In this document: piece by piece, positions 13,685-18,016 of the stretch
Layout of the letters: each line of letters opens with the position of its first letter
Position numbering within the stretch: the stretch's first letter is position 1
Virus record (IMG/VR): IMGVR_UViG_3300025872_000304
Coordinates: 1-23,865 of that record
Reading direction: 5' to 3' (one strand)
Origin: a virus
Length of the DNA: 23,865 nt
Notes under the pieces: generated by a model
Told to the model about the DNA's origin: nothing
Database searches by the model: none
The model's input: only the letters and a program-made list of their open reading frames with translations
Translations under genes and position numbers: made by a program

Positions 13685-13700
13685 GAAAACCGGGGGGGAT

Positions 13701-13725
13701 TAAAAACTCGGGAGCTGGGAGCCCG
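13701..13725 (-). terminator. Possible rho-independent terminator upstream of the terminase
   Basis: On the minus strand CGGGCT-CCC-AGCTCCCG forms a GC-rich stem with one bulged base, followed by AGTTTTTAA. It would end transcripts from the cassette and separate them from the packaging genes. If real, the terminase needs its own promoter between about 13700 and 13573, consistent with a start at 13573. Confidence 0.45.
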
Positions 13726-14021
13726 ATACTTCCAAGTAGTCCACGAAAGAAGACTAGCGTAGGTTGACTCGGGTACCCTCTGCGCGTGACTTGGTAAAAG
13801 CGAAACGAAAGGCGACGGTGACGGTGAGTCATCTTACTTTGAGTTGAGCTAAGTAACTTACAAAAAGATTTTCTCTTTTTGTTATCTTCTTCGGAAGGGT
13901 TACTTATGCTCACTCAGGTCTCTGGTTCTGGTGAGTTTTCTTACTTTTACCTTTTACTTTAAAAGTAGAAGATAGGGATAGCGAGCGAGAGCGAGCGGAC
14001 AAAGACAAGCCTGAAGGAAAG
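13726..14021. other. Non-coding gap between the 142-residue gene and the terminase
   Basis: I see no convincing gene here. A 106-codon frame on the minus strand starts at a GTG without a ribosome binding site and has an Arg/Pro/Ser composition unlike its neighbours. The gap holds an AT-rich inverted repeat, CAAAAAGA-TTTTC-TCTTTTTG (13861-13881), and a short GAGCGA-type repetition near 13980-13998. A promoter for packaging genes might lie here, but no convincing -35/-10 pair is visible. Confidence 0.5.
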
Positions 14022-14831: not shown

Positions 14832-14987
14832 TCACGCTTGCCGATCCACTTCCCATTTATTGAACCGCTTTTTGCCTAGCTTTTCTCCTACGCGCTCGCA
14901 GAGCGCAACGGCCCCGCAAAGGGCAGTCACGATTAACATGGGGGCACAAAGGGCCAACGCCGAAATAATAATGTCAGTCATAATCAT
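14832..14987 (-). CDS. Small single-span membrane protein
   Basis: A 51-codon frame begins at ATG 14987, overlapping the TGA of the glutamine amidotransferase gene as ATGA. It encodes MIMTDIIISALALCAPMLIV, continuing through TALCGAVALC to a basic tail (ERVGEKLGKKRFNKW). Residues about 5-30 form one hydrophobic helix, and the positive tail predicts a cytoplasmic C-terminus. The overlap and the sharp hydrophobic/basic division argue that it is real despite its size. It could be a small holin-like protein or a membrane partner of the two upstream enzymes; there is no lysin nearby to favour the holin option. Confidence 0.62.
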   Translation of the reverse strand: MIMTDIIISALALCAPMLIVTALCGAVALCERVGEKLGKKRFNKWEVDRQA

Positions 14988-15685
14988 GCAACGTAATCAG
15001 ACCAGTCTGCGCAGACCTCACACAAGAACGTGTTCCTCCCTGAACGGTAGCTGACCTCCCGCGAGCCGCACGAGTGGCAGTCCAGAGGGACAAGATCCCG
15101 AGACCCCGTCCGCTGCCGATACTCCCTTCCGAACCCTATCCCGCTCCAATAGGCAGCCGAATCAAGATTGCAATTGGATTGCCATACTTCCGGTGTTCTC
15201 CACGAGCCTTGCCCCTCATTAGCGATTAAGAGCTTTCCCTCATTATTTAACAGGGCGACCTTGCCATATCCCAGGCGTTGAATGTCCTCTTCAATCGACT
15301 GAACAGATATCTTTTTGATTGTCCTAAAATAAGCCTCTGAGTCAGTTATATCTCCCTCCGGTTTGATGTTACTAAAAACACCGTTGTGGGCTCCTACCCA
15401 TGCGGTTCTCTTATCCGAGACTTTCGGGAGCGTGAACGGGTGAACATTATTCAGAGTCGCGCTTCCATGCGTACCCATTCGCCAATGTAAAAGAGCAGGG
15501 ACATTATCGGGGATCCGCTGAATTGAATCCCACGCGACTTTTTCCGTGAGACTTTTGCTTATCTTCAACTTCCCGCCGCTTGCATATGCGAGCCCGAAGC
15601 CGTCCGAATTTATTCTCCATGCATTACTGAATTCCTCTTTGGTAGGTTTCCAACTTCCAGCTTTTCTTACAACTAATAAACACAT
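14984..15685 (-). CDS. Class II glutamine amidotransferase (Ntn-hydrolase fold) with C-terminal zinc ribbon
   Basis: This 233-residue protein begins MCLLVVRKAG, placing Cys2 as the expected N-terminal nucleophile once Met is removed. Further class II glutaminase features are DGFGLAYASGG (about residue 29), HWRMGTHGS (about 67, glutamine-binding Arg and the THG motif), and GAHNGVFSN (about 98, the Asn/Gly oxyanion-hole motif). Residue D in TDSEAYFRT (about 115) follows the usual order. The C-terminus carries a zinc ribbon, CHSCG through CEVC. The enzyme would release ammonia from glutamine for an amide-forming partner. The adjacent amidoligase-like gene, 18 bases upstream with an AAGGAAAGGAAA ribosome binding site between them, is the obvious partner. 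Such pairs have been described in phages and bacteria; the target here is unknown. Confidence 0.85.
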   Translation of the reverse strand: MCLLVVRKAGSWKPTKEEFSNAWRINSDGFGLAYASGGKLKISKSLTEKVAWDSIQRIPDNVPALLHWRMGTHGSATLNNVHPFTLPKVSDKRTAWVGAHNGVFSNIKPEGDITDSEAYFRTIKKISVQSIEEDIQRLGYGKVALLNNEGKLLIANEGQGSWRTPEVWQSNCNLDSAAYWSGIGFGREYRQRTGSRDLVPLDCHSCGSREVSYRSGRNTFLCEVCADWSDYVA

Positions 15686-15703
15686 TATTTTATTTCCTTT
15701 CCT

Positions 15704-16384
15704 TTATTTCACTAATTCAATCGCTCTTTTGATTACTTCTGCACCTTCCCTTGCAAGCGTTTTGAGGCTTTTACCCTTTGCTAATTGTTCCAAGCCTTCA
15801 ACTGCAAATAAATAAGCCTCGATGCGGGAAGGCTTCAGACTGCCGCTAAATAATCTCCACTCGATTCTACCGTATGACGAAACATTCAACGCCGCATATT
15901 TCCCTTGGTGGCCCCTTGCTAGGGCTTGTAAGCGCCTCCTTGCCCCGTATAGAACGCCGTTGCTATAGGGAGAGTAGGAATCACACTCACGTCCCGCCAA
16001 TTGAATGAGAAGGCTTTTGTTTCGCTCGATTAAATAAATGAGCCTTGCAATCTCACGTTCACTCCATCCCTCCCGATTGCGATTGATATGGCATCCCGCC
16101 CATCTATCCCGCTTTCGTTTCAATTGCCAAGATATCCCGCCGTAGCTTTTCGCTATACGGCAAATTGTGGAGACTTCATTTAATAGCTCTTCTTTCGTTT
16201 CATAATAGCAGAAGATGATTTCAATGCCTTTTGCATGGCATAAGGAGCCGTCTTTTTCCCAAATTACCCGCCGCAAATTTAATTCCTTTATTTCTTCTAA
16301 AAAGTCCCTTCTGTCCTCTTCTGACTCCAATTCGAGCTCGAGTTCCAGAGACCAGAATGAATGCGCTTCCATGCCGCGCGGCAT
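15704..16384 (-). CDS. Amidoligase-like (glutamine synthetase/COOH-NH2 ligase fold) protein, part after an in-frame TAG
   Basis: From ATG 16384 this is 226 residues; Met5 (MEAHSFWSLELELE) is another possible start. The acidic SLELELELE strand matches the metal-binding opening of phage amidoligase-like proteins. It is followed by WEKDGSLCHAKGIEIIF (a DGS...GxEI pattern), then AGCHINRNREGWSEREIARL (the G-H-I-N motif with helix) and NKSLLIQLAGRECDSYSP. These motifs occur in the family's order; the call is from memory of the family, not a search. The frame continues open upstream of ATG 16384 for 46 codons to a TAG and then joins the 107-residue zinc-ribbon frame, so the intact protein is probably longer. 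No Shine-Dalgarno sequence precedes ATG 16384. Confidence 0.7.
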   Translation of the reverse strand: MPRGMEAHSFWSLELELELESEEDRRDFLEEIKELNLRRVIWEKDGSLCHAKGIEIIFCYYETKEELLNEVSTICRIAKSYGGISWQLKRKRDRWAGCHINRNREGWSEREIARLIYLIERNKSLLIQLAGRECDSYSPYSNGVLYGARRRLQALARGHQGKYAALNVSSYGRIEWRLFSGSLKPSRIEAYLFAVEGLEQLAKGKSLKTLAREGAEVIKRAIELVK

Positions 16385-16522
16385 GCGGGGACGGGTGGCT
16401 TGGTGCCATGAGGGTATCTCATCTTCTCTGTTCTCGTTGCATTCAAGGCAAAGGACAGAATCCTCATAGTCAGAGCGCTCTGAGTTACAATAGGTTTCAT
16501 TACAGTTTTCGCAACAAAAACT

Positions 16523-16846
16523 CTAATCCTCATAACATGGAGCGCACCAAAGACGGCTTCTCCCGCCCCTTCTAACATGATGCCCCCGATCGATAGGGAA
16601 ACTGTTATGGCATTCATGGCAAGCCTCACATTCAGAGCAGGAATACCAATTCCCTTGCCATTCAATGGCATGTGAATCGTGACACGTTCTCCCGTTCTCT
16701 AGAGTTACGCATTCACTTTCGGAGTGCCAAGCATTAGTGTAGGCGCAAAACGCTAATGTAAAGCGCGTTGCGATTCTTCTCGCCCTTTCAAGGGGAAGGC
16801 CACGATTTTGATTAAGCGCGTTTTGCGCGATTATTTCTAGTCTCAT
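16523..16846 (-). CDS. Zinc-ribbon N-terminal part of the amidoligase-like protein, ended by TAG
   Basis: This 107-residue frame begins MRLEIIAQNALNQNRG and has paired cysteines: SECVTLENGRTC, WYSCSECEACHEC, and LWCAPCYED directly before TAG at 16523-16525. The same frame resumes after the stop with a second cysteine set, FCCENCNETYC and VLCLECNENRE, before the amidoligase motifs. Cysteine-pair ribbons ahead of an amidoligase domain are known in phage proteins of this type. The start codon lies inside a 17-base inverted repeat. As a free product the part could still bind zinc, but the downstream ribbon shows it once belonged, or still belongs, to one longer protein. Confidence 0.66.
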   Translation of the reverse strand: MRLEIIAQNALNQNRGLPLERARRIATRFTLAFCAYTNAWHSESECVTLENGRTCHDSHAIEWQGNWYSCSECEACHECHNSFPIDRGHHVRRGGRSRLWCAPCYED

Positions 16847-16926
16847 AAGATACTGTTTTTCAATTTGTTAGGTTTGTTTCTGTCCCGCCGCCCACACCGC
16901 ACTGAGTCTGTATCTTATGAAACTAG
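16837..16926. promoter_or_regulatory. 17-base inverted repeat around the start of the zinc-ribbon/amidoligase gene
   Basis: CTAGTCTCATAAGATAC (16837-16853) and GTATCTTATGAAACTAG (16910-16926) are inverted copies with one mismatch, separated by 56 bases. The left arm contains the ATG of the gene (16846). The right arm carries TAAGAT, a possible -10 box, 16 bases after TTGTAT on the minus strand. It could be a double operator or promoter for the cassette. A long-stem hairpin in the leader RNA is another option. Confidence 0.55.
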
Positions 16927-17023
16927 CAAAAGAATACAAGTAAAAAAATCTCACCTTCTATCTATGCGCCTTAGCACCTAATGCCCGCCTGCACATGGCG
17001 GAGATTATTTTATTCTTTTCTTG

Positions 17024-17047: not shown

Positions 17048-17138
17048 GCCCGGGCAGGAGATTATCTCGATCCAATCAGGGAAACGTCAGGATCTGTCCG
17101 GCCATCGGCGGCGGCAAACAGCCCGGCGGCGAATCTGC

Positions 17139-17210
17139 AATTTCAAATTTCAAATTTCAAATTTCAAAAATGGGAAATCCCAAAATCGGAATTTCAAATT
17201 TCAAATTTCA
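17139..17210. repeat. Two AATTTCA heptamer arrays around a small palindrome
   Basis: Four perfect AATTTCA units (17139-17166) and three more (17190-17210) flank TGGGAAATCCCA (17171-17182). The second array overlaps the stop codon of the 89-residue gene by three bases. Heptamers of this type are scattered in some bacterial genomes, so the array may have come with host DNA. Confidence 0.9.
17166..17184 (-). terminator. Weak terminator-like hairpin at the end of the early operon
   Basis: Read on the minus strand, TGGGA-TT-TCCCA is followed immediately by TTTTT. It lies about 26 bases after the last early gene. The stem is only five base pairs, so it would be weak alone. Confidence 0.4.
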
Positions 17211-17477
17211 CTTTATCATTTTCCGCATTTCATCCCACTTGCTTGCCGCCCTCTCCTGCGTCATGGGGATATGCACCTCTTCCACGGTAGCCTTGAACAT
17301 GGCAAGTATGCCAGCCATCCTGACCTTATCCTCCTCTTGTGCGCCTTCGAAGAACCCTTCCTCATGCACCCTTCCAAGCTCCGAGGCAATCCTCTTTGCC
17401 TCACCGATAAACTGCGTGTACTCCAAGCCCTGCTGTAGGACAGGACAATACACAAATTTCAATTTTTGTTTTTTCAT
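17208..17477 (-). CDS. Hypothetical protein, last gene of the early operon
   Basis: This 89-residue protein (MKKQKLKFVYCPVLQQGLEY) overlaps the helix-turn-helix gene upstream by ATGA. It is mostly helical and charged (GEAKRIASELGRVHEEGFFE, then ERAASKWDEMRKMIK). No domain is recognised. Coupling to a candidate small terminase suggests a packaging or regulatory accessory role, as inference. Confidence 0.65.
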   Translation of the reverse strand: MKKQKLKFVYCPVLQQGLEYTQFIGEAKRIASELGRVHEEGFFEGAQEEDKVRMAGILAMFKATVEEVHIPMTQERAASKWDEMRKMIK

Positions 17478-18016
17478 TTTGGCTTTAACGCCTGCATGAA
17501 TTGATCGGTTATCTCCGAGTTCCCGTGAAGATGAACATGTTGATGCAACTGCTCCGGTGACTTGGCCTTCTCCAAAGCCATGTACTTGTCCAGTGTGATG
17601 CCAAGGGTAAGCACGGCATCTTTGGGTGCCATATGTGGCAGGGTATCCTCCACTCTCTGCATCGCCCCATCAATGATGACCTGCATCTTGTTCTTGAGGT
17701 TGGCGGAGAAGTAGGCGTTGCGGAACTGGGAGTCGTAATCCAAGAAGTACTGCCTGACCTCGTTGACCGTGTTGTACGAGACCCCCACTTTATCAGCGAT
17801 AAACGGGCTGCCATGACCCTGACAGTACAGTTCCAGTATCTGCTTGCGCTGATCCTCGGAAACCCCCGCAAAGAGGCCTTTACCGTTGATCTTCTCAATC
17901 TGCACACCCATCACATGGTCTTCGATCTTGACGTTGGCAAGACCTGCCAGTTGACGGGCGCGGGTTTCGGCTGACTTGTATTGCCGCTTCTTCTTCTTAG
18001 GTTTCGGATCTTTCAT
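17474..18016 (-). CDS. Helix-turn-helix protein, candidate terminase small subunit
   Basis: This 180-residue protein has a very basic N-terminus (MKDPKPKKKKRQYKSAETRA). A helix-turn-helix lies at about residues 55-90 (QRKQILELYCQGHGSPFIAD, then KVGVSYNTVNEVRQYFLD). A long helical middle part follows (NAYFSANLKNKMQVIIDGAM) and a His-rich tail (LHQHVHLHGNSE). Small terminases combine a DNA-binding HTH with helical oligomerisation segments, so the layout fits, and no other small-terminase candidate is visible. The alternative is a phage transcription regulator. A GAGGTGA ribosome binding site is seven bases before ATG 18016. The gene overlaps the upstream gene by 20 bases. The large terminase lies 3.8 kb downstream, with the cassette in between. 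Confidence 0.6.
   Translation of the reverse strand: MKDPKPKKKKRQYKSAETRARQLAGLANVKIEDHVMGVQIEKINGKGLFAGVSEDQRKQILELYCQGHGSPFIADKVGVSYNTVNEVRQYFLDYDSQFRNAYFSANLKNKMQVIIDGAMQRVEDTLPHMAPKDAVLTLGITLDKYMALEKAKSPEQLHQHVHLHGNSEITDQFMQALKPK

Follow-up and report, generated by a model that had tools for sequence, protein, structure and literature searches.

In one virus record, an amidoligase-like gene, a glutaminase gene and a gene for a small membrane protein follow one another, which raises the question of what reaction such a set would carry out and whether it would do so at the membrane. The record considered here, namely IMG/VR record IMGVR_UViG_3300025872_000304, is 23,865 bases long, and the whole of it is referred to below as the window. 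The answer proposed, with slightly more confidence than doubt, is a phage pair of a familiar type that amidates with the help of glutamine and that, in some lineages, is bound to the inner membrane. For the most part, the pair is an ordinary and widespread set of phage enzymes, which the first-pass annotation recognised rightly.

The window carries SU10-type capsid and portal genes, and all likely genes examined lie on the minus strand. The cassette sits between the gene for a small HTH protein (17474-18016) and the terminase large subunit gene, in the order amidoligase (16846→15704), glutaminase (15685→14984) and small membrane protein (14987→14832). The amidoligase stop at 15704 is separated from the glutaminase start at 15685 by 18 bases, while the glutaminase stop and the membrane-protein start overlap as ATGA at 14984-14987. 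Coordinates, strand, spacing and coupling are therefore as first described; the description of the amidoligase as one open frame does not hold, as an in-frame TAG, previously unreported, interrupts it. Searches of the cassette against PADLOC for defence systems and against Rfam for structured RNAs gave no match. The features of the cassette are the following:

16834..16929, minus strand: inverted repeat forming a 17-bp perfect hairpin over the amidoligase start codon (z -3.0; window only)
16523..16846, minus strand: Cys-rich (zinc-type) N-terminal domain of the amidoligase, here a separate 107-aa ORF ending at the TAG
15704..16522, minus strand: predicted catalytic amidoligase domain of glutamine synthetase / glutamate-cysteine ligase fold (PHROG, AlphaFold, invariant residues)
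16337..16345, minus strand: E168-x-E170 motif, expected metal ligands (invariant in 51 sequences; role by analogy with glutamine synthetase)
15854..15862, minus strand: E329-x-R331 motif, expected metal and nucleotide/phosphate site (invariant in 51 sequences; same analogy)
14984..15685, minus strand: predicted class II (Ntn) glutamine amidotransferase, 233 aa, nucleophile Cys2 (Pfam, invariant residues, fold)
15011..15079, minus strand: CxxC-x15-CxxC at the C terminus of the glutaminase (residues 203-225; modelled with low confidence)
14832..14987, minus strand: single-span membrane protein, 51 aa, or 49 aa from Met3 at 14981 (topology, codon-position test, relatives)

Other parts of the window show traits of their own. 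Heptamer repeats of the TTTGAAA type, shared with the relatives L002 and L003, occur upstream of the cassette at 17132-17220. Next to the terminase large subunit gene, on its upstream side and within 13690-13900, about 180 bp are almost identical to L002 and L003 although the adjoining coding regions diverge far more from them. This block is missing in a further relative, L012; it matches no Rfam family above threshold and nothing in phage records, forms no stable fold (z 0.4), and may serve in packaging or control. The DnaB helicase is encoded in separate pieces, its N-terminal parts at 23863-23203 and its C-terminal part at 21632-21036, with about 1.6 kb carrying a PD-(D/E)XK (DUF3799) gene between them; in L003, too, the nuclease gene comes first and the C-terminal part of the helicase then has a frame to itself, and the gap in the window matched no intron family and no Rfam entry.

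Regarding the first enzyme, the window protein has no Pfam match, including at the curated score of Amidoligase_2 (PF12224), a profile with a cut-off of 22 bits for which its L003 relative reaches 13.2 bits and more distant paired members 30.0 and 19.5. The PHROG amidoligase families do match it (30.4 bits, E ~1e-7) and, by profile, it is a predicted diverged relative of Amidoligase_2. A sequence search of the PDB returned nothing relevant and the assignment was settled by fold. The AlphaFold model, built from 51 relatives (pLDDT 90.6), resembles glutamine synthetases with Z of 12-13.7, best over residues 159-361, as well as YbdK (Z 11.6) and the plant glutamate-cysteine ligase (Z 11.7), while the Pup ligase PafA is among its Foldseek matches with E < 0.001; the model thus has the glutamine synthetase / GCS fold. 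All 51 amidoligases share E168, E170, D199, S201, G207, E209, G251, H253, R286, E329, R331 and F333, i.e., the Amidoligase_2-type motifs E-x-E, DGS, HxH/HxN and E-x-R are conserved, and by analogy with glutamine synthetase these residues would serve metal and phosphate binding. Profiles, fold and invariant residues all agree with the amidoligase named by the first-pass annotation.

As for the second enzyme, annotated from the outset as a Cys2 class II glutaminase, its match to Pfam GATase_4 lies narrowly above the cut-off (24.2 bits versus 23) and the complete class II pocket is present, namely Met1-Cys2, R..THG, HNG and Asp, with M1, C2, R69, T72, H73, G74, H100, N101, G102 and D115 invariant in 53 of 53 glutaminases. 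Score, pocket and fold uphold the family assignment, the activity being a prediction.

The association of an amidoligase with a class II GATase is already known in phages (PMC10580990, PMC3890496). Since 2009, the pair has been read as a modifier of the cell wall or of metabolites (Iyer 2009, as relayed in PMC10580990), and the proposals put forward, as PMC10580990 relays them from Iyer 2009 and Mageeney 2012, are cell-wall change, superinfection exclusion and secondary metabolites. The papers found report no biochemical test of any pair member. In a survey of viral contigs conducted once from the glutaminases and once from the amidoligases, an amidoligase adjoins the glutaminase in 78 of 80 loci found by the former route, the contig or stored sequence ending close to the glutaminase in the other two, and a glutaminase is present in all 28 loci found by the latter. 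The two genes lie on the same strand, the amidoligase nearly always first, and their pairwise distances correlate (Mantel r 0.69, 0/2000 permutations); they are, in other words, adjacent, co-directed and co-inherited, and the pairing anticipated from the window alone extends to its relatives. Some related phages add a RimK-like ATP-grasp gene, and in the Pseudomonas phages the additions comprise an ATP-grasp enzyme, an AIG2-type protein and a COOH-NH2 ligase (see also PMC3890496); such additions point to amide-bond chemistry. A search of bacterial genomes with an alignment of closer sequences found no relatives, and the first 50 kb of the phiEco32 record contain no gene named amidoligase. In the halovirus ChaoS9, a protein whose gene lies directly upstream of a class II GATase (L118, 3857-4927) displays E-x-E, HxH and E-x-R by eye and is possibly a very distant amidoligase in an archaeal virus; profile comparison lends this no support (probability <1%), and ChaoS9 is not counted as a case of the pair in a host without murein.

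Both enzymes bear Cys motifs, which the first-pass annotation had taken for zinc ribbons foreign to the known pairing. In the amidoligase, CxxC motifs occur at residues 70, 73, 76, 101, 112 and 133 (counting the TAG as residue 108), Cys is three times as frequent in the N-terminal segment as in the catalytic domain, and a shuffled segment attains as many motifs in an average of 28% of trials; a close UniProt relative is named 'LIM domain containing protein'. Each of the 51 amidoligases examined carries at least two CxxC/H motifs ahead of its catalytic domain, a figure that holds for this clade as the survey profile was seeded from its sequences. The glutaminase has CxxC pairs at residues 203-206 and 222-225, and 33 of 53 glutaminases carry at least two CxxC beyond the Ntn domain. 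Given these counts, zinc-type motifs are ordinary in this clade rather than foreign to the pairing. The motifs would presumably bind zinc.

The 51-residue single-span protein is real. It has one hydrophobic span, at residues 6-24; its differences from the L003 counterpart fall 12/6/24 over the three codon positions, with 36 amino acids identical versus 24 in a random model (0/5000), and the ORF is coding. Since relatives start at Met3, the true start may be 14981 and not 14987. Counterparts of the same topology and weak sequence conservation exist in L002, L003 and L012, i.e., the ORF is found in four of four members of the lineage of the window, and the three-gene set, envisaged from the start as a recurring unit, does recur in these close relatives. 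A wider survey considered ORFs of 28-75 codons with a strong hydrophobic span and a start no more than about 25 bases from the glutaminase stop. Of 92 loci, 14 have such an ORF after the glutaminase, versus 11 of 265 control genes on the same contigs (odds ratio 4.1), the p of 0.001 being indicative only, as threshold and search distance were set after seeing the gene and related loci are not independent. On the glutaminase tree the trait requires six changes, versus a mean of 14 and a minimum of 11 after shuffling, and has therefore been inherited within clades after some six appearances. The six groups have no clear sequence identity in common and, being missing in most relatives, the ORF is not needed for the core reaction.

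It could be argued that the membrane protein is an unrelated downstream phage gene, e.g., for lysis or superinfection, and that a soluble pair modifies a metabolite or a host protein. Its absence from most relatives, the lack of shared identity among the six groups and the commonness of small membrane ORFs in phages, as in the 11 of 265 controls, would all suit such a view, which is regarded as a minor yet real possibility; the enrichment after the glutaminase, with stop-start overlaps or very short gaps, and the inheritance within clades following separate appearances argue against it. Under the preferred reading, the presence of the membrane protein in six lineages narrows the search for a substrate to the membrane in those lineages.

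A second alternative concerns the direction of the chemistry. EgtC is the gamma-glutamyl hydrolase of ergothioneine synthesis and, by structure, ties with the glutaminase domain of GlmS as the best match of the window glutaminase (both Z 15.2). The ligase might then attach glutamate or another acid to an amine, as EgtA does, the Ntn enzyme removing the gamma-glutamyl group later and no glutamine ammonia being involved. Because EgtC matches the structure as well as GlmS does, this alternative keeps some probability, the more so as glutamate-cysteine ligase is among the structural matches of the amidoligase and as the conserved glutaminase-type residues would recognise a gamma-glutamyl group either way. 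The sequence profile of the glutaminase, on the other hand, favours GlmS and PurF, and, in known families, the pairing of a glutaminase with a ligase is the usual arrangement for supplying ammonia; an EgtA/EgtC-like route is accordingly judged unlikely.

A third alternative is raised by the TAG itself, codon 108 of the amidoligase (16525-16523), which divides the Cys-rich domain from the catalytic domain in a frame otherwise open from 16846 to 15704. A code with reassigned TAG is unlikely, because TAG is an ordinary stop elsewhere in the window, where it ends at least six genes, the major capsid gene among them. The stop and the hairpin might instead have inactivated the amidoligase in a cassette now decaying in this phage, the other genes being remnants. 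No such stop interrupts the homologues in L002, L003 and L012, no clear ribosome-binding site lies ahead of the internal ATG at 16384, and the inverted repeat over the start codon, absent from L002 and L003, is peculiar to the window; stop and hairpin may together cause the window amidoligase to be poorly expressed. Yet identity to the outgroup L012 is 30.1% before the TAG and 32.7% after it, compared with 31.7-34.0% and 31.5-33.1% for the intact copies, and the lack of faster evolution on either side argues against old decay or an old pseudogene. The amidoligase motif residues are also intact, as are the glutaminase and the membrane ORF, both under coding constraint, and decay of the cassette appears improbable. 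The TAG is best described as recent, tolerated or an assembly variant, no near-identical genome by which to judge it having been found, and the amidoligase of the sequenced copy would be incomplete unless the TAG is suppressed or such a variant.

Taken together, the fold, the invariant polar motifs, the glutaminase pocket, the co-inheritance and the recurring membrane ORF support the reading of an amidating system. With glutamine and ATP, the pair would probably convert an acid group of a host molecule into an amide, and the reaction best supported would be one in which a two-protein enzyme amidates a carboxylate in dependence on glutamine. In this scheme, (i) the N-terminal cysteine of the glutaminase would release ammonia, or a similar amine, from glutamine, (ii) the amidoligase would use ATP to activate a carboxylate, in the manner of glutamine synthetase, and (iii) it would join the ammonia to the activated carboxylate, yielding a carboxamide. 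The most likely role of the Cys-rich domain at the N terminus of the ligase would be to bind the acceptor or the partner enzyme. The two enzymes may form a physical complex, and the co-translated single-span protein, added in this and five other lineages, may anchor them at the inner membrane, where they would lie close to a precursor of the envelope or to a membrane protein. A bolder and rather doubtful extension is that a small anchor was added several times and that the membrane-bound complex acts during infection by amidating either a membrane protein or a lipid-linked precursor of the envelope, e.g., to exclude competing phages; peptidoglycan as substrate and superinfection exclusion as outcome are published proposals only. 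New are the almost obligatory pairing across a large sample, the Cys-rich domains as a normal trait of the clade, the co-translated membrane ORF recurring in six clades and the in-frame stop of the window copy.

Compared with known systems, MurT/GatD, which amidates the peptidoglycan of S. aureus, is an analogue in that an ATP-dependent ligase and a separate glutaminase amidate a carboxylate (PMC3267633), probably at the lipid-linked stage (PMC3267633). It combines a Mur-ligase fold with a CobB/CobQ-type triad (class I) glutaminase, i.e., families different from those of the window, whose glutamine-synthetase fold and class II Ntn enzyme with N-terminal Cys rule out membership. EgtA/EgtC of ergothioneine synthesis is comparable in that it associates an enzyme of glutamate-cysteine-ligase fold with a class II Ntn amidohydrolase; EgtC, however, removes glutamate and feeds no ammonia, and the ergothioneine operon context is absent in the window. 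The cluster of LUZ24-like Pseudomonas phages, comprising a PF14395 ligase, amidoligase, GATase, ATP-grasp and AIG2 (PMC3890496), shares with the window the amidoligase and class II GATase, there in one early cluster (PMC3890496), but differs by its extra ligases, an amidoligase without N-terminal Cys-rich domain (UFV-P2 ORF23), a far longer GATase (486 aa) and an HNH gene between the two; no single-span ORF was found beside this GATase. A further likeness is with the PF12224 and class II GATase pairs of the Methylophilales phages MEP401/402 (PMC10580990), mycobacteriophage Marvin and Caudoviricetes ctgrD200, where the same two enzymes are adjacent and in the same order and a Cys-rich segment likewise precedes the ligase domain, at just 17-30% identity to the window enzymes. 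None of them has the small membrane protein of the window. Marvinvirus has an 81-codon ORF of its own coupled to the glutaminase, with a hydrophobic N terminus (L006, 4897-5142; L120, 2397-2642), which is gp115 in the Blackbeetle annotation, next to the ligase gp113 and the glutaminase gp114, and missing from that of Marvin; most changes between the two copies are at third positions (2/1/12), so this ORF is coding, and the Marvinvirus version with the coupled ORF infects M. smegmatis mc2 155.
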